A stretch of 64,000 nucleotides of DNA, taken from Sulfuricurvum sp. (GTDB taxonomy: Bacteria; Campylobacterota; Campylobacteria; Campylobacterales; Sulfurimonadaceae). This document shows, in pieces, positions 9,091 to 48,708 of this stretch (position 1 is the first letter of the stretch; every line of letters starts with the position of its first letter). The notes beneath the pieces are model-generated. The model searched no databases. It saw nothing but the letters and a program-made list of their open reading frames with translations, and was not told the DNA's origin. The stretch covers positions 186,001 through 250,000 of the forward strand of contig NZ_JAQTNN010000003.1 in the NCBI RefSeq assembly GCF_028713855.1. The letters are read 5' to 3'. Position numbers and translations under genes: made by a program.

Positions 9091-9092
9091 CT

Positions 9093-9113: not shown

Positions 9114-9165
9114 ATATTAATATGCTACAATTTCTATTCTAATCCAAATATCACGAGGATTCACC

Positions 9166-10185: not shown

Positions 10186-10190
10186 TATCC

Positions 10191-10890: not shown

Positions 10891-10959
10891 TGCATTGTTC
10901 TTAGTTTATTTTAAAGTTAGGTAGTATAGCATATTGAAAATCGCAAAAGTGAGGCAATA

Positions 10960-11583
10960 ATGGCAATTACCGTTCGTAAAGCATCCGAGGCGGATATTGA
11001 CATTATTGCCCAAGCATTAATCGAAGGATCTCGCGCCGGAAAGAGAATCGGGCTGTTTGATCTGGTGTTTAATACCTCCGATTATGAAGTACTTCTTGGG
11101 AATCTCAAGCGATTAGCTCTTACCTCAACTAAAAGCTATTGCCACTTCTCCAATTTTTTCATCGCTGTAGCCGATGGAGTAACCGCCGGAACCATCTGTG
11201 GCTACGAACCCCGAATCGCTACCCATGAAATTTTTTCCAAAGCGCTCGAAGAGATCGGATTTGACGAAACATACCACGAACGTATCGCCGCTTATTTGCT
11301 GTGCGAAGGGGAAGTGGATAACAAAACCTTTGTTTTGGATTTTATGCTCATCAAAGCGGAATTTAAAAGTCTTGACGTCTTTAAAGAGCTGATCGGGAAA
11401 AGTATGCTCACTGCCCGCCTCAAAGGGTATCGAAAAGTTCAAACCTCTGTTGAAATAGGCTCCGTCGAAAGTGAAATGATCTACAAAAAGCTAGGGTTTA
11501 CGGTTATCGACGAAAAACGAAGTGAATACTATAAAGAGCAATTCGACCGCCCAGGTATAATGCGCCTTCAAATGATATTGTAA
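10960..11583 (+). CDS. GNAT-type acetyltransferase
   Basis: The 207-residue protein opens like many GNAT N-acetyltransferases (ITVRKASEADIDIIAQAL) and ends with the usual C-terminal pattern of an acyl-CoA fold (GSVESEMIYKKLGFTVIDEKRSEYY). The substrate is unknown. The middle lacks an easily recognised Q/RxxGxG/A acetyl-CoA loop, so the family call is moderate. It is followed in the same frame, after one stop and three codons, by the NhaC-type antiporter, and the two are probably one operon with the two-component genes beyond. Confidence 0.72.
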   Translation: MAITVRKASEADIDIIAQALIEGSRAGKRIGLFDLVFNTSDYEVLLGNLKRLALTSTKSYCHFSNFFIAVADGVTAGTICGYEPRIATHEIFSKALEEIGFDETYHERIAAYLLCEGEVDNKTFVLDFMLIKAEFKSLDVFKELIGKSMLTARLKGYRKVQTSVEIGSVESEMIYKKLGFTVIDEKRSEYYKEQFDRPGIMRLQMIL

Positions 11584-11592
11584 GGATCCCCT

Positions 11593-32257: not shown

Positions 32258-35200
32258 ATGTATCTAAAAATTATTTTTTTTACCCTTCTGTTTGCTTTTA
32301 ATCTTCTCCGTGCCGCAACTCTTAGTTTAGAGAGTGGCTCTGTCACCATCGATAATTCAGAAAATGCCGCTACATGTAAAAGTTTCCGCCAAACCTATGC
32401 CGTTCCTCCCGTTGTTTATGTAATGATGGATGACAGCGGAAATAACAATGCCATTATAAAACTTACCAACGTGACCACAACACAATTTTGTGCTAAAGTC
32501 ATGGAAACAATTTTTGAAGACGGCCCTCACGTCAGTGTTCCGGCTTATTATGTCGCAATTCCTCAGGGAGTATACCGCCTACCTGATGGTACCAAAGTCG
32601 AAGCCGGTATCAAAACCATTTCCAATGTCGTCAACGATGATCGGATATCCAACAGTTGGACTACACTCACATTTAATCATGCCTACAGCCAACCCCCTTC
32701 GGTTATTACCCAATTACAGACCTTAAATAATGAATTACCTGCCGGAAACACCCCTACAGGCAGAGGAACGACCAATAATGCCATCTCCCTTCCATGGGTT
32801 ACCGAAACTGTCAACAACATCACCTCCTCTTCGGCTCAAATCGCATTAGATAAAAGCCATATTATTGAAACTGGTTTATCGATAACTCAAGGCGAGAAAG
32901 TAGGATACTTTGTTATTGAAAGTAATAAATTCGGAAGTTTTACCGCCACCGATACAGGGACAAATCCCGTTTATTATCAAACCTTTTTAAGTGGAAATGT
33001 TTTTGGAGGATACGATCAAACCTGCCAAAGCGTATCAATCAATAATGCTTTTCCTACCTCCGGCTATCTTTTTATTGCTTCCAAAGCGATCAATAATGCC
33101 TCCTATGGTGGTTGGTTTCGTAAATGTGCCGAAACCAGTCGTAAAATAGGTTTACTTATCGACAGTAAACGAGCCAAAGGTTCAGGAAAAGTTTCAGGTC
33201 AAAAGTGGGCAACTAGTGCATCTCCTGATTACGGTTTATCAACCCGCAACCATCCGGCAGCACCCGCTTCAATCGCCGTATTCAGCCGTTCGTTTGATCT
33301 CAGCCGTGTCGTCAACGACGCTAATCTCAGCGTCAACGCTTTAGTACAACCTTCAACCGTCATAGAGTCAGGATCACTTACTATGGATGTAAACGTCTCC
33401 AATAAAGGACCCGATTCTGCTCCCAATACGGTTCTTTCGCTTTCGCTTCCGAGTGGAATGACCTTTCAGCAAATTACCAGCGGAGGAGCAAATTGGAGCT
33501 GTGCACAAAATTCCAATGCACTGGATTGTAATCTGACAAGCGGCGCATTAGCTGCTAATACTACCAGTATGCTATCGCTAAAATTTTCAGCGCCCTCTAT
33601 CGCCAATTTTTATACCGTAAACGTCTCTGCCGCATCGGATGGGCTTGATGATGACGGAGCCGGTACAACCGCACAGTTTCAAGTCTATAATTTACTCGTC
33701 GATGATGATAAAGCTGAATGTCCCACTGCATCGTTTACAACTATCTCATCTGCGCTAAATATGGCACATTCAGGAGATACACTCCGGATCTGTAAGGGTA
33801 CCTATACGGAAAATGTTGCCGTCAACGTCAATGATATCAATATCACGTCCAACTCCGGTATTGCAACAGACGTTATCGTCAAAGGGAGCAACAGCAACGC
33901 CTTTACCGTCAATAAATCTAATGTGGGTATCAAAAATCTCTCTATAGTTCAAAATGTTTCCAATTCACGTGCCGTTCTCGCAGACAATGCCGCCAATCTG
34001 ACACTTGACAACCTCGTCATCAGTTATACAAACGGCAGCAATGAAGCGATCAAATTGCAAAACAGTTCGACAACGCCGATTTTAAAAAATATCACGATCA
34101 CTTCTGATCAATCCGGTATTAAAATGGACGGAGCAAACAGCTTTGCCCTTACCAATCTCAACATCACTGCCGGAAGTAACGGCGGAAATTACGGCATATA
34201 CGGTTGGAATATCAATACCGCATCTTCTCTTTCTCAAATCACTGTACAAAGCGGAGACAATGCTATTCAAGTTGTATCAAGTCAAAAAGTCACCATGACC
34301 GATATCAATGCCAACAGTTCAGTCGCACGGGCAATCTATATCCCGAACGGAACATTTTCACTCGGGGTAAGTACCTGGGCTTCCAACACCCTTGCGGCTC
34401 AAATGATAGCACTCCAAGGAGACAGCGCCGGAGCGTTTAGCGTACAAAACACCAATGCATCCAGTACAACCGATACAGTTATGAAATTTAGCAATGTAGG
34501 GAGCAATACCTTTACCTTTACCGACAATAACATTACCGGAAACAGTGCGAACAGTTACGGTGTATACATTGACGGCGGCGGCAGTGCTTCGATCATACAA
34601 CGCAACATTATTAGAAATGCGACAACGAATCAGGGACTTCGTTTACTCAATAATCCCACTTTCAGTTCCAAAATCTCCAATAACTGTTTTATGAATAACC
34701 TTACCCACAATGCAAACGTCTCTAATTCCGGAAATTCTCAATTTAACGGAAACTTTTGGGGAAATACTTCCGGGATAGCTGTAACACCTGATTACACTGA
34801 TACCAATGCACTCAGTTATTGTCCATTAACCTCTACTACTGTTCTTATAGCCGATTATCATTTCGATGAATGTACTTGGAACGGCACAAACGCAGAGGTC
34901 AAAGACATCAGCGGTAACAATCTACATGGTACTGCTCAGGGGAGTGCACAAACTTCTCTTAATGGCATTATCGACCATGCCGGTAACTTTAATAACAGTG
35001 CCAGTAATACGGATGCCATCATTATCCCTGACTCTGATTTACTAAGCCCTCATACAGGAACAAATGGAGAAATAACGATTAGTGCATGGGTAAAACTCAA
35101 TTCCTATCCAACATCTGCCCTTCAGGGGAGAATCCCGATTGTTGCCAAAGGTGATAACAACAACTGGGAATATGCTCTATATGTTTACCAAGATCATAAA

Positions 35201-37786
35201 GCCGGATTTTCTGTATGGCAAAGCAGTGGAAGCAGTTATATGGAAATTTCAGGTGGAAGCCTATCTTTGAATACCTGGTACCACATCACCGGCGTTCTGA
35301 AAAAAGGAGTTTTCGAGAGAGTTTATGTTAATGGAGCAGTGGTTGCCGAATCAACAAGCGGATTCAGTGGAAGCACTACCAATGGAACTTCGCCCCTTTA
35401 TGTCGCAAGAAGAGGCTCCGGTAATAATTATCTCAATGGGTATGTTGATGAAGTTAAAATTTTTCCTAACGCATTATCTTCCGCGCAAATATCCGCAATC
35501 GAAAATAATGAAAGTATGGGCAATAATTACGACGGCACAGCACGTACAGCCTCATGCTGTTGTATACCAACCGGAGGCAATCTTATCGCCAATCCAAGTT
35601 TTGAAACACTTTGTAATTCAAATATCCTGACTGCATTCGGGAATGTAGCAGGCGGTACCGTAAATTCACGTAGCGGCTTATGTGGATGGGATGTGGCTTA
35701 CTCATTAGAAACATGGGAAAACACTACTTCTCCGGCAGCTAGCAACGGTACTATCTTTACTGAAATCGACGGTAATGGAGGTCAGGTTGACAAAATATGG
35801 CAAACGCTCAATACAGCTGCAGGAACAAACTACATCATTTCGTTTGATTACCGAAAACGGGACACTTCCCATAGCGATTTCATAATCGCCAAATGGAACG
35901 ACGTTGCAATGACGCAAGTAGAAGGAAATACTGCCGGATGGCAAACCGCGCAAATACAAGTCACCGGAACTGCCGGAACGGATAAAATCTCTTTTGAAGA
36001 ACCTTCAACTTCCGATGACGGATACGGGAGCTGGATTGATAATATCCGTGTTGAGCAAGGGGCACTAGCCACCGACTGTACCTCATTCAAATACGAACCT
36101 TACCACAGTTACAATGCAAGTCTATCTCCTTCTTATCGACTTCAAACCCGTATTACAAATCAACCTTTTGACGTGAATGTAACCGTGGCCTGTGCTGATA
36201 GCGGCACTATTCCCTCACGAAAAATCAAGAATATTTATGCTATCGATGCCTTAGCCACCTCATGTAACGCTGTTACTCCAAAATTATTCACACTCCTTTC
36301 AAACGGAGCATATGATATCAACGAAACCAGCAGAGTCATTACTATTCCTAATCTAAACATCACCAAAGCCTATTCCAATATTAAATTTATGCTTGAAACC
36401 AATGCCAGTGAATTCAACTGCTCTAGCGATAGCTTCGCCATTCGCCCACCTTCATTTAGTATTACCTCACCGACAACATCAGCCAAAGCTGCTAATTTTA
36501 CTTTACAAATCTCTGCAAACAATAGCGGAACCGGATACCATGGAACAGCAAATGTGACGACGGGACTTCAAGCACCAAATCCAAACTGTCCTGTATCAAG
36601 CGGATTTTTAAAATCAAGTATAAGTCCAACTGAGCCACTCTCACTTATCTTTCAAAACGACAGTAATTCATCAACAGCAAAAGCAACCGATGTTGGAACA
36701 ATTTACCTCAATACAAAAGATACAACATGGACGGCTATAGACCAAAGCAATGATTGTATCGTTGATAGCAACACCACCATAATGAACACTCAGGGGCTAC
36801 TTGGATGTAACATTGAAAACAATCTCTCATTGAGCATTACACCGGATCATTTTGACGTCAATGCAACCCTTTCAGATTTCGGTGGAGGATTTACCTACCT
36901 CTCAAATGATCTCAATATGTCTGCACAACTCGGCCTCATCATCACGGCTGAAAATGACGAAAATGCCACCACCCAAAACTATACCGCCGGATGTTATTCT
37001 AAAGATACGACAGTTACACTTCCACACTCTGATGTTCCTGATCCTCTCACCAAAATTCTCTATTCTGAAGCGTTAAGTGGCGTAAATTCCAATGTTATCA
37101 AAAGCAATCCGTGGATATTAACCTTCAATAGCGGATTATTTAACAGTGGTTCCGTAGCCCCTAATATAGACCTTAATTTTGATCGAAACGAGACGAAACC
37201 TCTAAACCCGTTCAATTTTACCGTTACTTCAGCCACAGCTACCGATCCAGATGCTACGGGGACAGGCACACCGCTGGGGACAGCTCAATTTATCTATGGC
37301 CGTGTCCGTGCATACGATATTGCTACCAATATTTCACCTGTTGATGTTCCTGTAGAATTTGAAGTCTACAGCACCACCGCCAGTGGCTTTGTCAACGGTA
37401 TGCCTCAAAATGTTCTTCACTGGTATCGTAACCTCAATCACGACGCCGCCAATCAGGGAAACGTCATGCAGGGAGGTTTTAGCTCGGGAACCGTGAACAG
37501 CAATGTAAATGTTTCCGCCGCACCTCAAGAAGGTGTACAAATCGTGACAATTACCTCTACAACCGATCAAACCGTCCATTTGGACATTAGCAAGTGGCTA
37601 TGGTATTCTTCGAACTACGGTTATCTCTACTCAGGTACATGTACTCAACATCCATGTTTTAAATATGACTATACCGATGCTTCTACCGGAGTCAACGGAG
37701 TGAACAGCGGCACCTTTAAAGGAAGTGATTTCCAGATGGCACCGGCTAAAAATATCACCAATAAAGGGGTAAAAATCTTTCGATGA
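32258..37786 (+). CDS. Giant secreted multi-domain adhesin-like protein, MshQ position
   Basis: The 1842-residue protein has a signal peptide (1-19). A lectin-like N-terminal region (20-350, with repeated Cys) leads to a DUF11-type beta-sandwich (about 350-478: VNVSNKGPDSAPNTVLSLSLP). A right-handed beta-helix follows (about 478-860, opening FTTISSALNMAHSGDTLRIC, rich in Asn-containing rungs), then a LamG/concanavalin-like domain (about 862-1090: HFDECTWNG, ITISAWVKL, WYHITGVLKKG). A carbohydrate-binding-like module with NLIANPSFETLC spans about 1100-1270. The C-terminal 570 residues resemble MshQ only in position and style. No C-terminal anchor or beta-barrel is seen. The ATGA overlap with the first prepilin gene ties it to the pilus array; a tip adhesin is the natural inference. 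Confidence 0.75.
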   Translation: MYLKIIFFTLLFAFNLLRAATLSLESGSVTIDNSENAATCKSFRQTYAVPPVVYVMMDDSGNNNAIIKLTNVTTTQFCAKVMETIFEDGPHVSVPAYYVAIPQGVYRLPDGTKVEAGIKTISNVVNDDRISNSWTTLTFNHAYSQPPSVITQLQTLNNELPAGNTPTGRGTTNNAISLPWVTETVNNITSSSAQIALDKSHIIETGLSITQGEKVGYFVIESNKFGSFTATDTGTNPVYYQTFLSGNVFGGYDQTCQSVSINNAFPTSGYLFIASKAINNASYGGWFRKCAETSRKIGLLIDSKRAKGSGKVSGQKWATSASPDYGLSTRNHPAAPASIAVFSRSFDLSRVVNDANLSVNALVQPSTVIESGSLTMDVNVSNKGPDSAPNTVLSLSLPSGMTFQQITSGGANWSCAQNSNALDCNLTSGALAANTTSMLSLKFSAPSIANFYTVNVSAASDGLDDDGAGTTAQFQVYNLLVDDDKAECPTASFTTISSALNMAHSGDTLRICKGTYTENVAVNVNDINITSNSGIATDVIVKGSNSNAFTVNKSNVGIKNLSIVQNVSNSRAVLADNAANLTLDNLVISYTNGSNEAIKLQNSSTTPILKNITITSDQSGIKMDGANSFALTNLNITAGSNGGNYGIYGWNINTASSLSQITVQSGDNAIQVVSSQKVTMTDINANSSVARAIYIPNGTFSLGVSTWASNTLAAQMIALQGDSAGAFSVQNTNASSTTDTVMKFSNVGSNTFTFTDNNITGNSANSYGVYIDGGGSASIIQRNIIRNATTNQGLRLLNNPTFSSKISNNCFMNNLTHNANVSNSGNSQFNGNFWGNTSGIAVTPDYTDTNALSYCPLTSTTVLIADYHFDECTWNGTNAEVKDISGNNLHGTAQGSAQTSLNGIIDHAGNFNNSASNTDAIIIPDSDLLSPHTGTNGEITISAWVKLNSYPTSALQGRIPIVAKGDNNNWEYALYVYQDHKAGFSVWQSSGSSYMEISGGSLSLNTWYHITGVLKKGVFERVYVNGAVVAESTSGFSGSTTNGTSPLYVARRGSGNNYLNGYVDEVKIFPNALSSAQISAIENNESMGNNYDGTARTASCCCIPTGGNLIANPSFETLCNSNILTAFGNVAGGTVNSRSGLCGWDVAYSLETWENTTSPAASNGTIFTEIDGNGGQVDKIWQTLNTAAGTNYIISFDYRKRDTSHSDFIIAKWNDVAMTQVEGNTAGWQTAQIQVTGTAGTDKISFEEPSTSDDGYGSWIDNIRVEQGALATDCTSFKYEPYHSYNASLSPSYRLQTRITNQPFDVNVTVACADSGTIPSRKIKNIYAIDALATSCNAVTPKLFTLLSNGAYDINETSRVITIPNLNITKAYSNIKFMLETNASEFNCSSDSFAIRPPSFSITSPTTSAKAANFTLQISANNSGTGYHGTANVTTGLQAPNPNCPVSSGFLKSSISPTEPLSLIFQNDSNSSTAKATDVGTIYLNTKDTTWTAIDQSNDCIVDSNTTIMNTQGLLGCNIENNLSLSITPDHFDVNATLSDFGGGFTYLSNDLNMSAQLGLIITAENDENATTQNYTAGCYSKDTTVTLPHSDVPDPLTKILYSEALSGVNSNVIKSNPWILTFNSGLFNSGSVAPNIDLNFDRNETKPLNPFNFTVTSATATDPDATGTGTPLGTAQFIYGRVRAYDIATNISPVDVPVEFEVYSTTASGFVNGMPQNVLHWYRNLNHDAANQGNVMQGGFSSGTVNSNVNVSAAPQEGVQIVTITSTTDQTVHLDISKWLWYSSNYGYLYSGTCTQHPCFKYDYTDASTGVNGVNSGTFKGSDFQMAPAKNITNKGVKIFR

Positions 37787-38412
37787 GAAATGGTCTAACC
37801 CTGATTGAGCTGATATTGTCGATGGTGATCATCGGAATCGTCTTTACTGTCATTCCAAGATTAGTCATGTCAATGAATCAAAGCACTCAAACAACGATCA
37901 AAGAAGAGGCGATGTACAACGCCATGGCGCAGATAGGGATGATCCTAAATCTTCCGTGGGATAACAATAATACTCAAAATCCTCAAATCCTGACCGTCAA
38001 TGCCGGCGATGCAGGGTATGATTGTAACACGACCAGCGGCTACCGCATCGGCGGATTTGTGGGTGGACGCAACTGTATCGGAACAGGAACATACAGTGCC
38101 ACTCTCCCCGCTAATTTTAAAGTAGATACCCCCTCCAACGATATTGATGATTTTGATGGCAATATTACGGTAGTTACCGGTGGATGCGACAATACACCTA
38201 AATACAATATCGGAACAACCGTAATCTATTCTCCTGATAACGGTTTAGGCACGGCAGCTGGAACCACAAATACAAAAACCGTTGAAGTGAAAGTAGGCTA
38301 TAACAGCGCCAACAAATTATACGATCCAAGCAAAAAAAACTGCATCACTGATTTAAACTACACTTCTTACAACATAGGACACGTTCAAATCAACTCACGG
38401 AATTGGAACTGA
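37783..38412 (+). CDS. Type IV prepilin-like protein 1
   Basis: The 209-residue protein has a canonical prepilin leader: MRNG then LTLIELILSMVIIGIVFTVI, with Gly at -1 and Glu at +5 of the mature form and a hydrophobic N-terminal helix. A globular domain with several Cys follows (GYDCNTTSGYRIGG, GGRNCIGTGTY, KKNCITDL). The size suits a minor pilin in the MshD/MshO class. It overlaps the giant gene by four bases and the next prepilin by one base. Confidence 0.85.
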   Translation: MRNGLTLIELILSMVIIGIVFTVIPRLVMSMNQSTQTTIKEEAMYNAMAQIGMILNLPWDNNNTQNPQILTVNAGDAGYDCNTTSGYRIGGFVGGRNCIGTGTYSATLPANFKVDTPSNDIDDFDGNITVVTGGCDNTPKYNIGTTVIYSPDNGLGTAAGTTNTKTVEVKVGYNSANKLYDPSKKNCITDLNYTSYNIGHVQINSRNWN

Positions 38413-39251
38413 TGATGCGCCGCGCCTTTACCCTCATCGAGATCATCATTACCGTTGCCATTACGGGAATTCTCTCCGTCGGTATGTTCAAAGCATTCGA
38501 AGCGATTACCCTGCGCTCTGAGAAAGCCAAAATCCTCAGCGTCCTCTCCATTGATTCCCAAACGGCACTCGATCAAATCAGTATCCTTCTGTACAACCGC
38601 GCCCCGATATCGGTTGTCGGCTTTAATGAAACAGATTTACGTCCTTATTCACCCCTCAGTGAAACGGTTGATAAAAAAATTATCGAATGGTATGGATTGG
38701 CGTCTGAAAGCTATCTGGCAAATAATTACAGCGGTTTTGTAGATATGAATGCCTCCTCAAAACCGACTCTCTCATCTCCCAATACCGATTTAGCGGCTGT
38801 CCTTGCAACCGAACAAGATAAATGGGGAGGCTCATTTGCCTTGTCGGATATGGTTCTGATTTTTTCAGGCTCTTTTGATGAGGGTATCCGAAATGACTAT
38901 AATATTACTGCCAGTGCAGTCAACACCATCACCTTAAGCGGAACCCTTCCGGATGTCATTTATGAAAAATACAACCTTGTTGATTCTGCCTATGCCGTAA
39001 CCCGTAAAGAGGATGTATCTTCCTGCGCCAAAACATCCGCATACAATAACGATACGCTCTTGCTCTTTTATAATTATCGTCCATGGAAAAATCAAAGCTT
39101 TTGTGATGGAAACGTCAGTGTTCTTGCTACCAATGTCAACGCATTCCGCGCCCAAACGATCAACGGGACGATCCGTCTCGCCATCGATACCAACCGTACG
39201 GTGCGCGGCGGTAATCCCGTGAGACTATCCAAACAAAAGGTGGTGTTCTGA
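38412..39251 (+). CDS. Type IV prepilin-like protein 2 (MshO-like)
   Basis: The roughly 279-residue protein starts MMRRA-FTLIEIIITVAITGILSVGMF. Glu is at +5, but the residue before the cleavage point is Ala rather than Gly, which some prepilin peptidases accept. Its length fits the larger minor pilins (MshO/PilW/GspJ class). Two adjacent ATG codons exist; the first (38412) overlaps the previous stop as TGATG, and a TTG at 38403 is also in frame but less likely. Confidence 0.8.
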   Translation: MMRRAFTLIEIIITVAITGILSVGMFKAFEAITLRSEKAKILSVLSIDSQTALDQISILLYNRAPISVVGFNETDLRPYSPLSETVDKKIIEWYGLASESYLANNYSGFVDMNASSKPTLSSPNTDLAAVLATEQDKWGGSFALSDMVLIFSGSFDEGIRNDYNITASAVNTITLSGTLPDVIYEKYNLVDSAYAVTRKEDVSSCAKTSAYNNDTLLLFYNYRPWKNQSFCDGNVSVLATNVNAFRAQTINGTIRLAIDTNRTVRGGNPVRLSKQKVVF

Positions 39252-39697
39252 TGCGTCACGCGTTTGGTCTGCCTCAAGTGCTTCTCATCATCCTCTTTAT
39301 TGGAGGGATTGTTACCGTCACGATGCGCTACGCGTCACTGGGAGCCAAACATTACGCCGACAGCTATACCCGCGAGCAAGCCGAACTCTTTTTACAAAGC
39401 GCTACTGAAGCAGCACTGTTAAAGATCAGCGGACACTCTCGAGGTGTGGGAGGTACTGATTGCCTTTCTGCAGTCAATATCACCTCTCCTGACTCAAAAT
39501 TTCAAGCAAATATTACCATCAACAAATACTATCTTTCTGATGGCACGTCATGCGCTACGGCAGGATTAAGTGAAACCATCCAAACAGAAGAGTCCAACGG
39601 TATGATTGATATGACTGTCATCGTCACCTCCAATAGTACCAACACCAAAATCCTCCATCCGATCCGACTGGAACGAAGGAGCCTGCAACGCCCATGA
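39251..39697 (+). CDS. Atypical pilin-like protein (MshP/PilX position)
   Basis: The 148-residue protein has a very short basic N-terminus (MRHA) and then a membrane helix, FGLPQVLLIILFIGGIVTVTM. Position +5 is Gln and +4 is Pro, where a prepilin has Glu after Leu-Ile. A small globular domain with two Cys follows. MshP/PilX/GspK-type proteins also lack Glu5, so this may sit at the pilus tip. It is coupled to both neighbours (TGATG and ATGA). Confidence 0.65.
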   Translation: MRHAFGLPQVLLIILFIGGIVTVTMRYASLGAKHYADSYTREQAELFLQSATEAALLKISGHSRGVGGTDCLSAVNITSPDSKFQANITINKYYLSDGTSCATAGLSETIQTEESNGMIDMTVIVTSNSTNTKILHPIRLERRSLQRP

Positions 39698-40131
39698 GAA
39701 ACGGTTTCACACTCATCGAACTGATCTTTGTCATTGTCCTTATCGGTGTCCTCAGCGGCATCGGATTTTACATGAGCCGTCCCGATTACACCCGTCAGGA
39801 TGCCCAATACACCTTACTAAAACTAAAAGAGGCACGCTACCGTGCATTGGGATACGATGCACTCGATCCATCAGGATGCGTCACCCTCACCCAAGCCGCA
39901 CTCTCTGATAACGAAGCTCCGAAACATGAGATTAAATCGACTATTACCCTGACCCCGAATGTAACCACCGTCTGTTTTGACGGAACAGGTCGACCACACA
40001 CGGGTAATTCGGTAACATTAAACACACTCATGCAATCTGAACTAAACATATTATTTAAAAATGGTGATAAAAATAGCACTATTCGCCTTTTTAGTGGAAC
40101 GGGATATGCTATAATCCCCTGCAGTAACTAA
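39694..40131 (+). CDS. Type IV prepilin-like protein 3 (MshC/GspH-like)
   Basis: The 145-residue protein has the classic leader MRNG-FTLIELIFVIVLIGVLSGIGF with Gly -1, Phe +1 and Glu +5. A small C-terminal domain of GspH-like look follows (ATGATRCHT-like TVCFDGTGRPHTG) with two Cys near the end. It could be a minor pilin or the best local candidate for a structural pilin. The ATG overlaps the previous stop by four bases; a 56-base gap follows before the assembly genes. Confidence 0.82.
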   Translation: MRNGFTLIELIFVIVLIGVLSGIGFYMSRPDYTRQDAQYTLLKLKEARYRALGYDALDPSGCVTLTQAALSDNEAPKHEIKSTITLTPNVTTVCFDGTGRPHTGNSVTLNTLMQSELNILFKNGDKNSTIRLFSGTGYAIIPCSN

Positions 40132-40187
40132 TTTGATTTTTTAATTTTACCGATATAGAGTATCAATAAATCGCGGCAAGCAGGGCA

Positions 40188-41651
40188 ATGGAAAACCAAA
40201 AAATACTTTTCATCGAACACGACCGTATCCGTACGTACCAAGCAGGCGTACTGAGTGAAGGCTCTTCACGCGAATTCAAAGAGCTGCCATCGGGTGCGAT
40301 CGTCCCTCTCTCACTTCTCAATACCCACACCATTAAACTTTCCGATCGTCTAAGCGATGATGAACTTCGTATCCAAGTTGAAATTCGGATGTTCGAAGAG
40401 GGGAACCTAAACAGCGACGAAGAGTACACGATCGATTTTATACGCCATCGGATTGCAGCCGATGAAAGCATCTTGGTCGAAGTGTTTGCCCTCTCCCATA
40501 CCAAAGCAAACGAGTATTTCGCAGATTCCCTCTCCAAATGCGGCGCCATTGATCAAATCACACCGGGGTTTATGATTTATCACTCCCTCTACCCTGTTCT
40601 CAGTGCCAAAAACGATCTCTTTATCTATTGGGGAGATGAAGAAGCGTATGCCGCGATTTACCAAGAGGGGCGTTATATTGCCCATCGCAGTATCGAAACA
40701 CTTGCCTCGATTGCAGTTGAAACAGGGCTGGATTTACCGAAACTTAAAAGTTTCCTCCATTCCAAAGGGCTCATCGAAGAAAACTACTCTCCCGAAGAAC
40801 TCAACAAATACATCCTGCTTCAAGAGCGTATTGCCAAAAATATCGAGCGAATCGTCCACACCATCAATCATAAACGGGGATTATTCGGTCTCAGCGGCGT
40901 CGATAACTGTTATCTCGATTTCGAAGGGGAAAGCATTCCGGGATTGGAGAGTATTTTTAATGCCTACGGTGTTAATGATATTCAGGTTTCCGCTCTCAAA
41001 CGTGAAGAATGTTCTCCCGCAGATCTGCATGACGTTTTATGCAGCGACTATTTTCTCACTCCCAAGGAAAAAACGCTCAATCTTTCCCCCTATCCGCGCA
41101 AAGCTCCATGGTATAACAGAGAAAGCGGCAAGTTTTTAGGGCTTATCGGTGGGGCACTGCTTATCGTCTTACTTTCATCACTGTATATCGGATGGATGAT
41201 TAGCTCTGAAGAGACCCGTCAAAATGAGCTCACGGCTCGCCTCGAAACCCTTAAAAAAGAGACCTCCCAACTCTCCGCGACGCTCAAACAAAACAATGCC
41301 CGACTTCATGAACAGCAGACTAAAAGCAAAGCAATCCAAGAAGAGATCGCTCTCTATCACACAGCTGAAGAGACAGCCGCTTTAATCCATGATATGCATG
41401 CCGCACGCCAACAGTTTCTCCTCGACACCACCTCTGAGCTGGGACACTACCGATTGGGCGCAATGCTGATGGAGCAAAACGGATCCAAAGAGATGAGCCT
41501 TCTCGTTGTTTCCGACTACCGTAAGCGTGACGATATCGCCAAACTTATGAGTGGCCTCTATGCACGCGGGTATCAAAACGTTGAGACCCATGAGATTAGA
41601 CTCGATAATAACAATACCACGTACAACAGCCTCGTAAAGGTGACGCGATGA
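40188..41651 (+). CDS. MshI-like pilus assembly protein (PilM/PilN-type)
   Basis: The 487-residue protein has a cytoplasmic N-terminal part of about 310 residues with an actin-like flavour. A single membrane helix (FLGLIGGALLIVLLSSLYIGWMI, about 317-340) follows, then a coiled coil (TARLETLKKETSQLSATLKQ) and a C-terminal PilN-like ferredoxin-fold domain. This is the MshI position and shape: inner-membrane platform linking ATPase and periplasmic partners. The family call is from architecture and synteny. It overlaps the next gene by four bases. Confidence 0.72.
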   Translation: MENQKILFIEHDRIRTYQAGVLSEGSSREFKELPSGAIVPLSLLNTHTIKLSDRLSDDELRIQVEIRMFEEGNLNSDEEYTIDFIRHRIAADESILVEVFALSHTKANEYFADSLSKCGAIDQITPGFMIYHSLYPVLSAKNDLFIYWGDEEAYAAIYQEGRYIAHRSIETLASIAVETGLDLPKLKSFLHSKGLIEENYSPEELNKYILLQERIAKNIERIVHTINHKRGLFGLSGVDNCYLDFEGESIPGLESIFNAYGVNDIQVSALKREECSPADLHDVLCSDYFLTPKEKTLNLSPYPRKAPWYNRESGKFLGLIGGALLIVLLSSLYIGWMISSEETRQNELTARLETLKKETSQLSATLKQNNARLHEQQTKSKAIQEEIALYHTAEETAALIHDMHAARQQFLLDTTSELGHYRLGAMLMEQNGSKEMSLLVVSDYRKRDDIAKLMSGLYARGYQNVETHEIRLDNNNTTYNSLVKVTR

Positions 41652-42277
41652 ACGATTTAGACGTACAGCTCGACAACCTCGACGAACAGCTTTTAGCGTA
41701 TCAGCCCAAACAGCGTTGGCTTATTTATATCGGGAGCGCTGTCGGGATTTTAGTAATGGGATGGATGTTTTATCTTTCGGATGCACTGGATGAGCTTAAT
41801 AGCTTAGAAGAACAAAACAGCGCCCTTGTAACACAAATTTCCGACAATTCGCCTGACGCATATCGAGCAAAAATAAATCAAAGTGCGAATGCTCTGATCA
41901 AAGAAGAAGTACACACCGCATCGCTCGAAAATGAGAAACAAGTTCTTTTAGTCCAAATGGCTGCATCGTCAGGGCTTATTTTTGATAATCGCCATTATGC
42001 CGCAATGCTTGACCTGCTCTTAGAGCGTTCCGTCAGACTTGGGCTTAAAATAGAACTCATGCAATCGGAAGATACCGATAAAATCTTCTTTGGCAAAGTC
42101 AAACAATTTAAACAATTAACGATTACCGGAACAGGAAGTTTCCCTGCTATCGCCGATTTCTTAGCGTTTATCGAAGGGCAAAACACGTTAGTGGAAGTCA
42201 AAAGCGTCCAAATTCGCTCTGATGAAGAAAAACCCCGTTTTGAAGCTATTATCCTCTATATGGGGGTCGGTCTATGA
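41648..42277 (+). CDS. MshJ/PilO-like inner-membrane protein
   Basis: The 209-residue protein has an N-terminal cytoplasmic stub and one membrane helix (WLIYIGSAVGILVMGWMFYL). A coiled coil and a C-terminal alpha/beta domain resembling PilO follow (FKQLTITGTGSFPAIADFLAFIEGQNTLVEVKSVQI in blocks). PilO-type proteins pair with PilN to align the secretion platform. It is coupled at both ends by ATGA overlaps. Confidence 0.75.
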   Translation: MNDLDVQLDNLDEQLLAYQPKQRWLIYIGSAVGILVMGWMFYLSDALDELNSLEEQNSALVTQISDNSPDAYRAKINQSANALIKEEVHTASLENEKQVLLVQMAASSGLIFDNRHYAAMLDLLLERSVRLGLKIELMQSEDTDKIFFGKVKQFKQLTITGTGSFPAIADFLAFIEGQNTLVEVKSVQIRSDEEKPRFEAIILYMGVGL

Positions 42278-42630
42278 AAAAACTCCCCGTATGGATTCTA
42301 TTATGTTTAACGCTATCGCATCTGTTGCACGCCCAAATGTACGATCCGTTTCGAAAAACCTCTAAACCAAAATCCGCAGTGCTCAACGGACTCCTTCCCC
42401 CGCCGCCGATGATGGCGGCTGTACCGACTTTTGTCCCTACGACCGTAACTGCTGTTATGAATAACAAAGCATTCATTAACGGCGCATGGTATCGTGTCGG
42501 CGATCGGGTTAATAATCAAGAAGTTGCTTATATTCAAAATAATTTCGTCGGTCTCAAAGAAGGCAATCGCCTAAGCATGATCAGTGTCGGTTCCAACCGC
42601 CATGTACTCGGTATAAAGGATACTCCATGA
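42274..42630 (+). CDS. MshK/PilP-like periplasmic protein
   Basis: The 118-residue protein has a signal peptide (about 1-20), a Pro-rich linker (LLPPPPMMAAVPTFVPTTV), and a small beta domain with INGAWYRVGDRVNNQEVAYI and LKEGNRLSMI. This is the look of the MshK/PilP/GspC homology-region domain that docks to the secretin N-domain. It is coupled to MshJ and the secretin by four-base overlaps. Confidence 0.75.
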   Translation: MKKLPVWILLCLTLSHLLHAQMYDPFRKTSKPKSAVLNGLLPPPPMMAAVPTFVPTTVTAVMNNKAFINGAWYRVGDRVNNQEVAYIQNNFVGLKEGNRLSMISVGSNRHVLGIKDTP

Positions 42631-44168
42631 AAACAATAATTTTGTCGCTCTTACTTCTTTTTTCTCTCCTCCAAGCGAAAGAGTGTGAAAACAAACGCTT
42701 CAGCCTAAGCGCTTATCAGAATCGCGGTTCGGCACTAACCCTGATGGATCTTGTCCGTGATGTCGCTCAAACGTGCCATATCAGTGTTGTTTTCGAAGAT
42801 CAGAAGGCCAAAGAACGTCTTTCACAGCCTCTTGATATGGTAAACATCCAAGACTATACCGTTGCGGAACTTTTTACTTTTATATTTGATGATCATAACC
42901 TTTTTTATGACTACGATGAAGCTAAAGGCATTGTTCGCGTCTCTTACAATAAAACTGTCAATCTGAATATCGATTACATCAATATGTCTCAACTCATCAC
43001 CGAATCGAGTAAATCAATCACCGTCGGTCCGGGAGCCAATACTGGGGTAGCTTCAAACAGTGGTTCAAACGGTAGCAGTTCAAGTGGTAGTAGTTCATCT
43101 TATGGCAATAGCTCTTCCGGAGGCTCAAGCGGTTCAAGCAGCGGTTCAAGCAGTGGTTCAAATACCGACTACACCAATGTCCATGCTGTCTCCACATTTA
43201 CTTTCTGGGATCAAATGCGTGAGCACATCCAACAAATCCTGCAAGTCGATGAAGAGTACAACGATACGATCAACAAAACGCTGGTCAACCGTGATGCCGC
43301 CGTCGTCACCATCACCGGAAACAAACGTCAAATCGATGCTGTCCAACAGTATCTGACGAAACTCGAATCTCGCATGCATGCACAGGTGATGATTGAAGCG
43401 CACCTCATCGAACTCACCTACAACGATTACAATACCACCGGTATCAACTGGAGTGATTTCAGTCTATCCCTCAAAGGCAATTACGCCAACAGTTATAACA
43501 ATATGGGTATTGCCCATCCGGTTTACTCTTTCGGGGTCAATTTTGACCCGCTGGGGCTAATCGATTTTCTCAGCCGATACGGGGATGTTGAAATCCTTTC
43601 CAACCCAAAAATCCTGACACTGAGCAATCAGCCCGCAGTTATCAATGTCGGGAAACAACTCAGTTATCTCTACCAAAACGGCTCTATCGCTTCCTCCAAT
43701 ACCCAAACGGCAGCCACTACAACCAATACCCTAGGATCGGTCTTTGTCGGGCTCACCCTGAACATCATTCCGGAAGTGACCGAAGATGGTTATATCGTCA
43801 TGCGGATCAACCCGGTCACCAGTGAATTACTCGGTGAAGATCTCAATGCATCAACCGTTGTGGGCTCAAGCGAAGTCAGCAGCGCTAACCGTACGATGCC
43901 CCCTGATACTCGCGTTAAACAGATGACCTCCATTGTCAAAGTAAAAGATGCTCAAAAAGTCCTTATCGGCGGTTTGATTGAGAAAAAAACCTACAACTAT
44001 GATAACAAAGTCCCGGTGCTTGGGGACATTCCTTTACTTGGGCGATTATTCCACGGATCACGGGCGTCAACACGTAAAAGTGAGCTCTTTATCCTGATTA
44101 CCCCAACCCTTATTAAACAAGACGTCTTCCCCTCTATCGATGACGCCATTTTAAAACGGTTTAACTGA
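42627..44168 (+). CDS. Secretin, MshL/PilQ-like outer-membrane channel
   Basis: The 513-residue protein has a signal peptide, then an STN-like N-domain (MDLVRDVAQTCHISVVFEDQKAKERLSQ, about 40-100). A Ser/Gly-rich linker (about 142-178) precedes a further N-domain and the secretin core: VEILSNPKILTLSNQPAVINVGKQ, VFVGLTLNIIPEV and the C-terminal VPVLGDIPLLGRLFHGSRASTRKSELFILITPTLI. It should form the multimeric outer-membrane gate for the pilus. The Ser/Gly linker is encoded by imperfect repeats. Confidence 0.92.
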   Translation: MKTIILSLLLLFSLLQAKECENKRFSLSAYQNRGSALTLMDLVRDVAQTCHISVVFEDQKAKERLSQPLDMVNIQDYTVAELFTFIFDDHNLFYDYDEAKGIVRVSYNKTVNLNIDYINMSQLITESSKSITVGPGANTGVASNSGSNGSSSSGSSSSYGNSSSGGSSGSSSGSSSGSNTDYTNVHAVSTFTFWDQMREHIQQILQVDEEYNDTINKTLVNRDAAVVTITGNKRQIDAVQQYLTKLESRMHAQVMIEAHLIELTYNDYNTTGINWSDFSLSLKGNYANSYNNMGIAHPVYSFGVNFDPLGLIDFLSRYGDVEILSNPKILTLSNQPAVINVGKQLSYLYQNGSIASSNTQTAATTTNTLGSVFVGLTLNIIPEVTEDGYIVMRINPVTSELLGEDLNASTVVGSSEVSSANRTMPPDTRVKQMTSIVKVKDAQKVLIGGLIEKKTYNYDNKVPVLGDIPLLGRLFHGSRASTRKSELFILITPTLIKQDVFPSIDDAILKRFN

Positions 44169-44170
44169 TT

Positions 44171-44965
44171 ATGTCCAAATGGCTTGAAGCGGCAGACAGA
44201 TTTGAAGAACGGCGCAACAGCGACGAGTATTTTGAAGTTCAAAGTGCTCTCGGAGCAATCGAAAAAATCCAGACTCTTTTGAATGGTGCCTTTCGACAGC
44301 TTATTTTTCTTATCGGCGAACCTGGAAGCGGAAAAAGCTTTTTACTCAATCATCTCCATACCATTTGGAGAGAAAAACGCGATATCATCCTCATCGAAAC
44401 CCCGTTTCTCACCCCGATTGATCTGCTTAAAAAACTTCTGACCCATAAAGGGGTCAATGTCAACGGAAGTGACATGGAACAGCTTCGAATGGAAGCTACG
44501 CAGCTTTATGGTGCCACTGATCATCTCATTATGATCGACGAAGCACAGCTACTTAGTACCGAGATGCGCGAGTTCATCCGTATTTTGAGCGATTCCAAAG
44601 CATTTTGGTTTATTATCGCCATGCACCGAAGCGAGGGGGAAGCAATTTTGCGCGCACCTCATTTTAAAAGTCGACCTCATCGCGTTATCGAGCTTTTTCC
44701 CCTTACTACAATTGAAGCCAAAAACTACATCCATTCTGAACTTATTCGAATGGGATTCTCTGAAATTATTGATGAGATAACCCCGAAACTCATTGCCAAA
44801 GCCCACCGATTAAGTGAAGGAAATTTTCGTAATTTCAAAAAGATCTTTTACCATCTTTTCCACCTCCTTCACTATACTAATGCCCATAATAAAGCCAAAT
44901 ACCTTCGTCCCTCTTCGTGTACTATCACAATGGCGGCTATGAATGCGGAGCTACTCCATGATTGA
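44171..44965 (+). CDS. MshM/ExeA-like AAA ATPase
   Basis: The 264-residue ATPase has Walker A GEPGSGKSF (about residues 46-54) and Walker B HLIMIDEAQLL, a layout shared by MshM, ExeA/GspA and TniB-like proteins. It has no peptidoglycan-binding C-terminus, so it resembles MshM rather than ExeA. In Msh and GspAB systems this class helps place or assemble the secretin. It starts two bases after the secretin stop and overlaps the TPR gene by eight bases. Confidence 0.82.
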   Translation: MSKWLEAADRFEERRNSDEYFEVQSALGAIEKIQTLLNGAFRQLIFLIGEPGSGKSFLLNHLHTIWREKRDIILIETPFLTPIDLLKKLLTHKGVNVNGSDMEQLRMEATQLYGATDHLIMIDEAQLLSTEMREFIRILSDSKAFWFIIAMHRSEGEAILRAPHFKSRPHRVIELFPLTTIEAKNYIHSELIRMGFSEIIDEITPKLIAKAHRLSEGNFRNFKKIFYHLFHLLHYTNAHNKAKYLRPSSCTITMAAMNAELLHD

Positions 44966-45683
44966 TAATTTTGATCAACTCGTAATGCGCTGTGAAAAGG
45001 CTCGCCAGCGCCGAATACTACGCCTTTCCTTTATGATCGTAGGGACTTTATTGTTTGTGATTGCAGGCATTGCCGGATTTCAAATGTGGATTAATTCCGC
45101 TTCAACCCCCGCAGTACTCGAAAAAATACCGGAAGTAGCAGCACAAGCTCCCGCACCGGCAGCATCGGAAATCAACCGGAAGATTACTCCCTCAGCCGCT
45201 ACCCCTGTTACAGCACCTAAAACAACACCGACTAAGGTTTCACCTGATCCCTCAGTAATCACACCGGGTGTAAAACCCTCGGTACTTGCCCCGGAAACTC
45301 CTCCATCAACCGTAGACAAAGTACCTACGATTACGACGGTTGCAGTACAGGCACCTAAGAGCAACCGTTTATTCGAAGTCAATACTCAAAATGCCTCCAC
45401 TCCCGTCGATGCGTACCAAAACAATCCGAAATACGAGACAGCTCTCGCCGCCGCCCGTGATTTTTATGCAAAAGAAAATTTTATAGAAGCCGCTATCTGG
45501 GCCAAAAAAGCCAATCAGCTAAACCGTGAAGCGGAAGAGGCGTGGCTTTTGTATGCCAAATCGTATTACGCACAAGGACGTAAAAGTGAAGCCATCGGCG
45601 TTTTAGAGCTTTACCTCAATTATAAAGATTCCAAAGCCGCTTCCGAACTGTTGCGAACGTGGAAATTAAACAGCACCAACTAA
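44958..45683 (+). CDS. MshN-like TPR protein
   Basis: The 241-residue protein has a short basic N-terminus, one membrane helix (LSFMIVGTLLFVIAGIAGFQMWI), and a long Pro/Thr/Ala/Val-rich linker (about 40-135). TPR-like helices end it (YETALAAARDFYAKENFIEAAIWAKKANQLNREAEEAWLLYAKSYYAQG in blocks). This is the MshN pattern. I start it at the ATG at 44958, which has GGAG seven bases upstream; an in-frame ATG at 44943 would add five residues. Confidence 0.78.
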   Translation: MIDNFDQLVMRCEKARQRRILRLSFMIVGTLLFVIAGIAGFQMWINSASTPAVLEKIPEVAAQAPAPAASEINRKITPSAATPVTAPKTTPTKVSPDPSVITPGVKPSVLAPETPPSTVDKVPTITTVAVQAPKSNRLFEVNTQNASTPVDAYQNNPKYETALAAARDFYAKENFIEAAIWAKKANQLNREAEEAWLLYAKSYYAQGRKSEAIGVLELYLNYKDSKAASELLRTWKLNSTN

Positions 45684-45693
45684 GGAGAAGAGG

Positions 45694-47370
45694 ATGATCC
45701 GACAACAAGTACGATTAGGAGATTTGCTCATTTCCGAGGGACTTATAACCTACGATCAACTTGAATATGCACTGGCTCAACAAAAAAATTCGGGATTTAC
45801 TAAAAAACTCGGAGAAGTACTTGTCGAAGAGGGGCTAATCTCCCATAAAGAGATGGCATTGCTCCTTTCCAAACAGCTGAAAATCGATTTTGTTGACCTC
45901 TTTGGTGAAAAGATTGATTTTCAATCTCTCTCCAAATTCTCCATTACTTTACTCACGGCTGCCAAAGCGATTCCGTTTAAAGAAGATGAAGATTACGTCT
46001 ATATCGCCACTTCTGACCCTCTCAACTTCGATGCATTAGAAGCGTTGGAACGTAATATCGCAACCAAACCGATCAAAGTCTACCTCTCGCTCAGTGAAGA
46101 TATTGCCCATATTTTTCAACGTCTTGAAATTATTAAAAAGACTCAAAGTATCGCTGCCGAGGTTAAAAAAGAGATTAATAACGAAGGTTCCAAAGGGGCT
46201 GATGGAGATGCCAGTTCCGTTATGCAACTCATCACCCTCATGATCAAAGACGCTGTTTTACGACGTGCAAGTGACATTCATATCGAACCTGAACTCCGCT
46301 CCATGTCCGTACGTGTACGGGTAGACGGCATTTTACAGGAGACCTTTGTCTTTGATCTGGATATCTACACTGCCCTCTCTTCCAGGATCAAATTGTTGGG
46401 AAATCTGGATATTTCTGAACGTCGTAAAGCCCAAGACGGTCGGTTTAGTCTCGATGTTGCAGGGGGGAAATACGATTTTCGTCTCTCAACGACACCGACC
46501 TTGTTCGGCGAATCCATTGTTATGCGTATCCTCGATCAGCAGAAGATCCTTCTCAAACTTCATGAACTCGGTTTTGACGGTAAAAATTTAGAAAAATTCA
46601 ATGAAATCATTCATGCGCCGTTTGGAATTGTCCTCATTACAGGACCTACCGGAAGTGGTAAAACAACAACCCTTTATGCTGCACTGAATGAAGTCAAAAG
46701 TATTGAAAACAAAGTGCTTACCATCGAAGACCCTATCGAGTATCAGCTTCCTCTGGTACAACAGGTACAAGTCAATGAGAGAGTAGGATTCAGCTTTCTC
46801 GAGGCCTTGAAATCCTTTTTACGCCAAGATCCAGATATTATCCTCGTAGGGGAGATTCGTGATTTTGAAACCCTTAATTCTGCGGCGCAAGCTTCACTGA
46901 CCGGTCACTTGGTGTTCTCGACGCTTCATACTAACGATGCCCCCAGTGCTATCGGACGGATGGTACAAATGGGGCTCCAACCCTATCTCATCGCCGATTC
47001 ATTGGTCGGTATCGTAGCACAGCGATTGGTGCGTAAAATTTGTTCCGAATGCAAAAGTGAAGTTAAACCTCACAAAAATCTGCTTCGCCGCATTGAGCGA
47101 TGGGTGAGTGAAGATTCCAAGTTTTATGCGGGGAAAGGGTGTTCCAAATGCAACAATACCGGCTATTCGGGACGAATTTTGATCTCTGAGATTCTTATGG
47201 TGAATGAAACCATCGCCAAAATGATTTCTGATGAGTCTTCTAAATACGAAATTGCACGATTTGCACAGGAAAATGAAGGGTTTGAACCGATGATTATCGA
47301 CGGACTCAGTAAAGTATTGGGGGGGATTACTACCCTTGATGAAGTTCTTCGTGTCACCAAGGAAATGTAA
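45694..47370 (+). CDS. MshE/PilB/GspE-type assembly ATPase
   Basis: The 558-residue ATPase carries Walker A GPTGSGKTTT, the Asp box VLTIEDPIEY, Walker B DPDIILVGEIRD, the His box LTGHLVFSTLHTND and a zinc-type CSEC...CSKC tetracysteine near residues 450-490. The N-terminus has two tandem MshEN-like motifs: RLGDLLISEGLITYDQL (from residue 7) and KLGEVLVEEGLISHKEM (from residue 38), each ending in a Gln. In MshE such motifs bind c-di-GMP. It should power pilus extension. AGGAGAAGAGG precedes the ATG. Confidence 0.93.
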   Translation: MIRQQVRLGDLLISEGLITYDQLEYALAQQKNSGFTKKLGEVLVEEGLISHKEMALLLSKQLKIDFVDLFGEKIDFQSLSKFSITLLTAAKAIPFKEDEDYVYIATSDPLNFDALEALERNIATKPIKVYLSLSEDIAHIFQRLEIIKKTQSIAAEVKKEINNEGSKGADGDASSVMQLITLMIKDAVLRRASDIHIEPELRSMSVRVRVDGILQETFVFDLDIYTALSSRIKLLGNLDISERRKAQDGRFSLDVAGGKYDFRLSTTPTLFGESIVMRILDQQKILLKLHELGFDGKNLEKFNEIIHAPFGIVLITGPTGSGKTTTLYAALNEVKSIENKVLTIEDPIEYQLPLVQQVQVNERVGFSFLEALKSFLRQDPDIILVGEIRDFETLNSAAQASLTGHLVFSTLHTNDAPSAIGRMVQMGLQPYLIADSLVGIVAQRLVRKICSECKSEVKPHKNLLRRIERWVSEDSKFYAGKGCSKCNNTGYSGRILISEILMVNETIAKMISDESSKYEIARFAQENEGFEPMIIDGLSKVLGGITTLDEVLRVTKEM

Positions 47371-48609
47371 GTGAAATTTTTTCGGGTACGCTACAAACAA
47401 GGTAAGCATAAACACTCTACCATTTTTGAAGCAGCCCATAAAGCCGAAGCACTCAAAAAGTTTCGAGAAAAGTCACTCGGCGTGCCCGTTGAAGTTAAAG
47501 AAGTATCTCAACCTTTTTCCATGAAAGTTGACCGTTTTAAAAAACAATTCACCAATCCGATTCAAAATCGACGCGTCAAAGATGAACCCTATATCGCCTT
47601 TTTGGATCAGCTCTCCACGATGCTCGATGCAGGAATGCCAATCAATACCTGTATGGCTGAAAGTATCACGGATACGGAAGACCCTATGATACGAGCTATT
47701 TTTACAGAGGTGCTGCGTGATATCGAAAGCGGTCTCAGCCTCAGCCGAGCCGTCGTCAACTATCAACGCCAACTGGGAACCTTATCGCTCTCTATGTTTG
47801 AACTCGGTGAACAGACGGGAACCCTTAGCACCGCGATTGCCAAACTTTCCGCGATCTTACAGCAAATTTTCGATAACCGCCAAAAGCTCAAAAAAGCCAC
47901 CCGATATCCCCTCTTTATTTTGATTGCCATGAGTATCGCGTTCACGGTCGTCATCACGTTTGTTGTTCCCCAATTTCAATCTTTTTTTGAACAATCGGGG
48001 ATGGAACTCCCCTTCCCCACCAAACTCCTGCTGTGGACGGAACACGCTATTCGTATCTATGGCCCCTATATCCTAGGTGGTGCGATTATCCTCTCTGTTT
48101 CCTTTAGTTTTGCGTATCGCCGAAATCCAGTACTCAGACTAAAAACAGACCAATATTTGCTCAAAATCTTCATTGTCGGTAAAGTAACCTATTATGCAAT
48201 GATCGGACGTTTTATTTATCTGTTCAACGTCCTCACTGAAGCAGGGATTCCAATGATTGATGCACTGGAAATTGCAATGGGTGTTGTTGAAAATAGCTAC
48301 ATTAAACAAGAACTCCGAAAAATCCCCACAGCAATCGAAGATGGTCGCTCATTAGCTCAGGGATTTACCGAGAGCGGTCAATTCGAGGGGATGGTAATGC
48401 AAATGATCAAAGCCGGAGAGAGCAGCGGATCACTCGGAGCGATGCTGGGCAAAGTGAATCGAGTGTATAATAGCCGTTATGATTATATCGTTGATAACGT
48501 CGCAACCATGATTGAGCCGATTTTGATCGCCGCCATTGCCGGATTTGTTCTGGTACTGGCGTTGGGGATCTTTTTGCCGATGTGGTCGATGGTCGACATT
48601 GCAGGATAA
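47371..48609 (+). CDS. MshG/PilC/GspF-type platform protein
   Basis: The 412-residue protein is a typical GspF-domain duplication: FLDQLSTMLDAGMPINTCM and, later, FIYLFNVLTEAGIPMIDALEIA, each followed by membrane helices (PLFILIAMSIAFTVVITFVVPQFQSFF and PILIAAIAGFVLVLALGIFLPMWSM). It forms the inner-membrane rotor for pilin insertion. The start is GTG directly after the ATPase stop, with AAGGA seven bases upstream. Confidence 0.92.
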   Translation: MKFFRVRYKQGKHKHSTIFEAAHKAEALKKFREKSLGVPVEVKEVSQPFSMKVDRFKKQFTNPIQNRRVKDEPYIAFLDQLSTMLDAGMPINTCMAESITDTEDPMIRAIFTEVLRDIESGLSLSRAVVNYQRQLGTLSLSMFELGEQTGTLSTAIAKLSAILQQIFDNRQKLKKATRYPLFILIAMSIAFTVVITFVVPQFQSFFEQSGMELPFPTKLLLWTEHAIRIYGPYILGGAIILSVSFSFAYRRNPVLRLKTDQYLLKIFIVGKVTYYAMIGRFIYLFNVLTEAGIPMIDALEIAMGVVENSYIKQELRKIPTAIEDGRSLAQGFTESGQFEGMVMQMIKAGESSGSLGAMLGKVNRVYNSRYDYIVDNVATMIEPILIAAIAGFVLVLALGIFLPMWSMVDIAG

Positions 48610-48612
48610 AAT

Positions 48613-48708
48613 ATGGAACTCGAAACCGGAACCATCACCGTTGCCATTGTGAGTACCATTATCCTCGCATTTGGATTATGGATAATTCATAAAATTACAA
48701 ATATTTAA
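48613..48708 (+). CDS. 31-residue single-pass membrane peptide at the end of the pilus array
   Basis: The short gene starts three bases after the GspF-type stop. It encodes MELETG, then a clear membrane helix (TITVAIVSTIILAFGLWII) and the short tail HKITNI. The upstream ribosome site is GCAGGATAAAAT, inside the end of mshG. Its stop codon overlaps that of convergent murG (48705-48707). I do not recognise a family; MshF lies after MshG in Vibrio but is larger. Coupling and composition make it a plausible real peptide. Confidence 0.6.
   Translation: MELETGTITVAIVSTIILAFGLWIIHKITNI

Follow-up and report, generated by a model that had tools for sequence, protein, structure and literature searches.

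A probable accessory MSHA-type pilus array headed by a giant MshQ-like protein in Sulfuricurvum and its core sister machine in Campylobacterota

Introduction

The question raised by a compact run of genes between leuA and murG in a genome of the sulfur-oxidising Sulfuricurvum sp. is which filament or secretion machine it encodes and what such a machine would do beside the other filament systems of the same cell. The run lies in a stretch of 64,000 nucleotides (hereafter the window; G000:C3:186001-250000) of an assembly comprising 2.81 Mb in 26 contigs, and its MshM protein is 69-92% identical to relatives that mostly stem from Sulfuricurvum MAGs. A first-pass annotation had proposed an MSHA-type array with the giant and the prepilin genes at its front, representing either a distinct Campylobacterota variant of the Msh machine or an adapted secretion system. 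The occurrence of MSH systems in Epsilonproteobacteria was already listed by Denise 2019 (PMC6668835), and the literature search yielded no useful paper on DUF6701, nor on MSHA in Sulfuricurvum or Sulfurimonas. The answer developed here is that the array probably encodes an accessory MSHA-type type IV pilus, which would carry the giant at its tip, use a displaced pilin pair (pair A) as shaft, share PilD and PilT with other systems and serve c-di-GMP-gated attachment.

Layout and genomic setting of the array

The array comprises 13 plus-strand ORFs (32258-48609) in the order MshQ-D-(O)-(P)-C-I-J-K-L-M-N-E-G and is flanked by leuA and murG/ftsW, both on the minus strand (Table 1). The ORF calls bear out consecutive plus-strand genes with the giant first, while the earlier count of about 14 genes ending at 48708 needs correction, as the last gene ends at 48609 and 48708 lies 4 bases inside murG. 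Sealing of the array by stop/start overlaps into one transcript had also been proposed and applies in part: eight of the 12 junctions overlap (1-23 bases, mostly ATGA) and one abuts, but three are gaps of 2, 10 and 56 bases. Overlapping, abutting and short-gap junctions of this kind render a single transcript plausible; scans of the array for promoters and terminators returned counts at chance level.

Table 1. Genes of the array with their coordinates in the window and the evidence for their assignment (hhalign values refer to Aeromonas counterparts)
Gene	Coordinates	Strand	Evidence
MshQ-like giant	32258..37786	+	1842 aa; secretion signal; variable head; conserved C-terminal module of ~440 aa
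Minor prepilin, MshD/GspI-like	37783..38412	+	N_methyl; best hhalign match MshD 96%
Minor prepilin, MshO/GspJ-like judging by length and position	38403..39251	+	N_methyl; GspJ profile E 0.005; hhalign N-terminal only
Atypical prepilin, MshP/GspK position	39251..39697	+	no Glu5; predicted pilin-like fold
Minor prepilin, MshC/GspH-like	39694..40131	+	N_methyl; hhalign MshC 97%, 133 columns
MshI position, probable PilM+PilN-like fusion	40188..41651	+	hhalign PilN-like 30%, E 6e-4 (weak); homologous and syntenic to core-machine gene
MshJ (PilO-like)	41648..42277	+	hhalign MshJ 87%, E 4e-6
MshK	42274..42630	+	hhalign MshK 95%, E 5e-8
MshL secretin	42627..44168	+	TIGR02519 228.9 bits, cut-off 250.2; hhalign MshL 100%
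MshM AAA ATPase	44171..44965	+	AAA_22 1e-16; hhalign MshM 98%, 237 columns
MshN position, TPR protein	44943..45683	+	TPR profiles and position
MshE extension ATPase	45694..47370	+	T2SSE 4e-125; MshEN 6e-13; NF053729 57.8 bits (cut-off 38); hhalign MshE 100%
MshG platform	47371..48609	+	T2SSF 2e-49; hhalign MshG 100%, E 1e-46, 30% identity over 390 columns

This arrangement is found again in around a dozen congeners as well as in Arcobacter, Hydrogenimonas and Sulfurospirillum MAGs, and is therefore not a product of chance. The array is nonetheless an accessory island: in 14 congeners, out of 30 murG loci retrieved, leuA directly follows murG. A decaying island devoid of function, as its lack in most congeners and the displacement of pilins from it might suggest, is most improbable considering that none of the 13 frames in the window is interrupted, that identity within the genus is 60-84% for most of the machinery and that the order is retained in other families. 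In one congener (G017) the same leuA-murG site harbors a different filament machine, so that this site resembles a hot spot for such machines. This other machine (L213, G017:C3:12000-31999; 3092-12554, minus strand) is type IV filament/T2SS-like and encodes an ATPase, a platform, a secretin and two pilins.

Identity of the machine

As a reference, the canonical msh locus of Aeromonas caviae (L175, NZ_AP026896.1 325288-358301) was used, where the order is I, PilN-like, J, K, L, M, N, E, G, F, B, A, C, D, O, P, Q; these gene names are our assumption from order and general knowledge, the record being unannotated there. The record comprises 4.94 Mb and is chromosome-sized, though filed as a plasmid, and its mshQ is broken by a probable transposase ORF that is repeated elsewhere in the same stretch. 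In this gammaproteobacterial locus the pilin genes and MshQ lie downstream of MshG, as the first-pass annotation had stated for Vibrio. Profile-profile comparison with families built from 26-44 Campylobacterota homologues of each array gene identified counterparts of MshQ, D, C, J, K, L, M, E and G (Table 1) and upheld the order of a giant, four prepilin-like genes and I-J-K-L-M-N-E-G. The counterparts of MshI, MshN and MshO/MshP are assigned by position and weak similarity more than by sequence, and hhalign of the MshN-position protein with Aeromonas MshN gave no significant match.

Where profiles discriminate, Msh models outscore Gsp and Pil models: the secretin reaches 228.9 bits with MshL, which is below the curated equivalog cut-off of 250.2, compared to 154.6 with GspD and 109.6 with PilQ. 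MshM, which is mandatory in the MSH model of Denise 2019 (PMC6668835), is present together with MshE bearing MshEN, MshG and an MshQ-type giant, and the locus is devoid of a prepilin peptidase. A type II secretion system (T2SS) releasing the giant might be envisaged, as secretin, ATPase and platform are homologous to Gsp proteins and the giant, encoded first in the array, carries a secretion signal. Yet all scores fall below the curated T2SS cut-offs (GspD 154.6 against 351, GspE 513 against 630, GspF 242 against 424), GspO is lacking within the array, counterparts of MshM, MshK and MshQ are present, and contig C1 encodes a classical T2SS whose GspD and GspG exceed their curated cut-offs (L039). 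The NCBIfam scores and this separate system rule against the T2SS reading, to which we accord very little probability. The idea of an adapted secretion system is likewise not supported.

The alternative proposal, a distinct Campylobacterota variant, holds insofar as the array is of MSHA type and begins with the MshQ/minor-pilin block; that prepilins come first is not confined to this phylum, since the MSH locus of Legionella adelaidensis (L176 7610-19034; on a 365 kb plasmid record) likewise has its prepilins in front, without an adjacent mshG.

Isolated parts of the machinery were also encountered. In Sulfurospirillum diekertiae, S. cavolei and one MAG (L154, L155 and L151, around 9400-12000), MshM and MshN occur without adjoining MshL, MshE or MshG, which constitutes a remnant or split locus, and a UBA1877 MAG contains an MshM homologue within a 514-aa ORF (L119 10001-11545) without a surrounding array.

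Minor prepilins

Naming of the minor pilins by Pfam and NCBIfam was abandoned because the N-terminal motif alone scores. In the protein at the MshP/GspK position, profile searches did not detect N_methyl. Its AlphaFold model (pLDDT 87.7) consists of a long N-terminal helix and a sheet, and the six best structural matches are all pilins or pseudopilins (Z 5.3-6.8); since these values lie below 8, the predicted pilin-like fold was weighed together with the gene context. For the same protein, Foldseek returned nothing under E 0.001, whereas pseudopilins ranked first with VIA (Z 6.8). Compared to the closest relative (L042), the first and third prepilins (37783-38412 and 39251-39697) are 65-68% identical and the second 92%, a mosaic of the tip block that was probably caused by recombination.

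The giant MshQ-like protein

The head of the giant matches Laminin_G_3, a lectin-like domain (7e-26), and DUF11 (1e-7), and Laminin_G_3 was found in 17 of its 23 homologues. Its conserved C-terminal part of about 440 residues ends with WLWY...C..HPCF...SG.F.GSDF...KGVK.FR and aligns with Aeromonas MshQ (hhalign 98%, E 7e-13, 293 columns). DUF6701, to which Aeromonas MshQ as positive control scores 294 bits, is matched by four of the 23 homologues (best 1.5e-20); the giant of the window shows no match to it at E 1. In a structure search, the C-terminal module matched nothing beyond widespread Ig-like stacks, among them FdeC (Z 8.9) and complement proteins, and a family claim from fold search was thus dropped.

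Giants from contig ends may lack their N-terminus; the genus values are drawn from loci L042-L053. Within the genus, mean identity amounts to 26% for the giant head and 49% for the C-terminal module, compared to 84% for MshE, 79% for MshG, 72% for MshL, 64-68% for the minor pilins and 49% for MshN. In the clearest case, L043 (genome G035), MshE is 96% identical to that of the window, while the head shares 27% identity and the giant measures 1189 instead of 1842 aa. Hence, the heads are exchanged on a constant anchor, which makes the tip a candidate for deciding what these bacteria stick to. Of 298 Campylobacterota genomes, 132 contain homologues of the C-terminal module, which cover 33 of 58 genera; many of these are partial, core-type matches.

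A core sister machine and its probable relation to Cts

The genome of the window encodes a second machine (L038) in the order I-J-K-L-M-N-x-E-G, the locus being devoid of prepilins. MshM of this core type is present in 35 of 37 genomes of the genus, and the majority of the families sampled within the order have it as well, with the core gene order kept. Trees of MshE and of MshE plus MshG resolve core and accessory proteins as two sister clades, each spanning several families (MshE+MshG support 95/96 for core and 95/99 for accessory), and both types co-occur in four genomes (G000, G005, G039 and G045). The array thus is an accessory paralogue of a near-universal core machine of the same order, and the two represent old sister clades.

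In Campylobacter jejuni, the transformation genes ctsR, D, P, X and E correspond to cj1475c-cj1471c, and the locus tag of ctsT (cj1077) adjoins that of proC (cj1076) (PMC8308473). By way of these published locus tags, the Cts order R-D-P-X-E-F is matched by both array and core, and the core machine is probably the Cts competence system of Campylobacter, as judged from gene order and the published tags. Across Campylobacterota, a cassette of a giant followed by three prepilins, without machinery, adjoins hpf and recG, and also proC in one family (L077 2256-8294; L247-L254), these three names being derived from reading the translations. The cassette is homologous to the tip block of the array and probably fulfils the corresponding role for the core, Cts-like machine.

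The ATPases of the two machines differ in their N-terminal domain. V. cholerae controls MSHA by c-di-GMP via MshE, for which two 24-residue MshEN motifs were described (PMC5013675). The array MshE carries predicted tandem c-di-GMP-binding motifs at residues 7-30 and 38-61, the first identical to the published consensus and the second deviating by K for R and M for L, and matches MshEN PF05157 with 49.1 bits. Using the relaxed pattern of PMC5013675, both motifs were found in 27 of 38 accessory ATPases versus one of 16 core ATPases; the pattern is imperfect, given that Aeromonas and Legionella MshE show one of two motifs yet pass the HMM. The core ATPase of the same genome (L038 11156-12892) gave no match to NF053729 at 1e-5. 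Core ATPases (the latter and L219-L236) mostly are without the motifs, although L232 retains both. The accessory ATPase has kept the predicted c-di-GMP-binding domain, which most core ATPases have lost.

A paralogue of the Cts machine that acts as a second DNA-uptake filament in transformation could accordingly be considered for the array, as both machines form sister clades and the core copy in the same genome has the identical I-J-K-L-M-N-E-G order corresponding to ctsR-D-P-X-E (PMC8308473). This we regard as rather unlikely, because the array is patchily distributed, has a hypervariable lectin-like tip protein and retains the c-di-GMP domain, which is missing from the core copy in most families that possess it. 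The accessory adhesion pilus remains the preferred reading.

Pilins, prepilin peptidase and retraction

Prepilin peptidase, PilT and a major pilin had been noted as absent, which is true within the array only: a bifunctional prepilin peptidase (pilD), the sole Peptidase_A24 of the genome, is encoded on contig C4, two PilT/PilU genes are located on C4 and C10, and a pilin pair linked to the array lies 35 kb upstream of the giant. The conclusion drawn from their absence is thus not supported, all the more since MSH loci are all devoid of pilD and mshA may be a loner (Denise 2019, PMC6668835), while V. cholerae MSHA uses PilD and PilT in common with other systems (PMC7096442).

Two prepilin pairs, A and B, were found just beyond the window (L076), pair A (C3:182177-183160) lying 2.8 kb past its edge. 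In five genomes (G005, G016, G028, G006 and G060), orthologues of pair A are placed directly between leuA and the giant, with pilin 2 being 67-72% identical in the first three. Pair A matches of at least 68 bits occur in 12 of 14 array genomes but in none of 23 others (Fisher p 5e-8, for 37 congeners that are not independent and whose relatedness is ignored); the two exceptions are G001, which is 89% complete, and G011, whose contig ends within the gene preceding pair A. No profile names either pilin of the pair MshA, and the link to the array consists in orthology and co-occurrence. Relatives of pair B are present in 41 of 41 genus genomes, and this pair probably serves the core machine. In the Arcobacter, Hydrogenimonas and Sulfurospirillum MAG arrays, a prepilin pair may adjoin MshG.

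Proposed mode of action and implications

In the accessory pilus as proposed, MshI-J-K-M-N-E-G would provide motor and platform in the inner membrane and MshL the pore in the outer one, while filament assembly would start from the four minor prepilins (GspH/I/J/K-like), which would hold the MshQ-like giant at the tip. The pilin pair 35 kb upstream would build the shaft, PilD would process the prepilins and PilT/PilU would retract the pilus, both being common to other filament systems of the cell. Binding of c-di-GMP to the N-terminus of MshE would promote extension, so that the cell could use the pilus to attach to surfaces or partners, and the exchangeable head of the giant would set what is bound. 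Probably, then, the pilus displays on its tip a very large adhesive protein that is often swapped, with c-di-GMP in control. The sequences themselves establish gene content, order, homology, the c-di-GMP motifs, the linkage of pilins and array, the exchange of heads and the island status, whereas assembly, tip position, binding, c-di-GMP control and adhesion are deduced from them. Against the proposal speak the MshL score below its cut-off, the position-based assignment of MshI, MshN and MshO/MshP, the missing direct DUF6701 match of the giant, the unspecific outcome of its fold search and the separation of the pilins from the array in this genome.

On a wider scale, it is tentatively suggested, at somewhat less than even confidence, that Campylobacterota possess two ancient sister MSH-type machines: a near-universal one, which turned to DNA uptake (Cts), kept a giant MshQ-like tip protein and three minor pilins at hpf/recG/proC and, in most families, no longer has its ATPase under c-di-GMP control, and an accessory one, the array, which remained an adhesion pilus gated by c-di-GMP and bearing exchangeable heads. 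If true, the competence pilus of Campylobacter would possess a giant tip protein that has so far escaped notice. Two subjects that have been studied apart, MSHA pili and the transformation system of Campylobacter, would be tied to one family within one phylum and in genomes holding both, which offers a natural comparison of one filament machine perhaps turned from c-di-GMP-gated adhesion to DNA uptake. As far as the literature examined shows, the core/accessory split, the Cts link and the retention versus loss of the c-di-GMP domain are new. On the same scope, it is also new that the MshQ-like giant exchanges its heads and that the displaced pilins are linked to the array.

Comparison with known systems

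With the MSHA pilus of Vibrio, Aeromonas and Shewanella, the array has in common counterparts of Q, D, C, J, K, L, M, E and G, including the hallmarks MshM and MshQ, a putatively c-di-GMP-binding MshE and a locus without pilD. It differs from this pilus in that MshQ and the minor pilins stand in front, MshQ being first, that one long gene occupies the MshI position, that no MshF was found, that the pilin pair lies outside the array in this genome and that the exchangeable heads are rich in lectin-like domains. The gene order of Cts (CtsR-D-P-X-E-F) is the same and the core copy is its probable orthologue, whereas the array belongs to the sister clade, is accessory and self-contained with its own tip block, and has kept the predicted c-di-GMP domain. 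Secretin, ATPase, platform and pseudopilins are homologous to those of T2SS, from which the array is set apart by MshM, MshK and MshQ and by the true T2SS that the genome encodes at another site. Type IVa pili, with their FimU-PilV-PilW-PilX-PilY1 tip complex, presumably have the same layout of four minor pilins and a giant tip protein; unlike PilY1, the giant of the array groups with MshQ/DUF6701.
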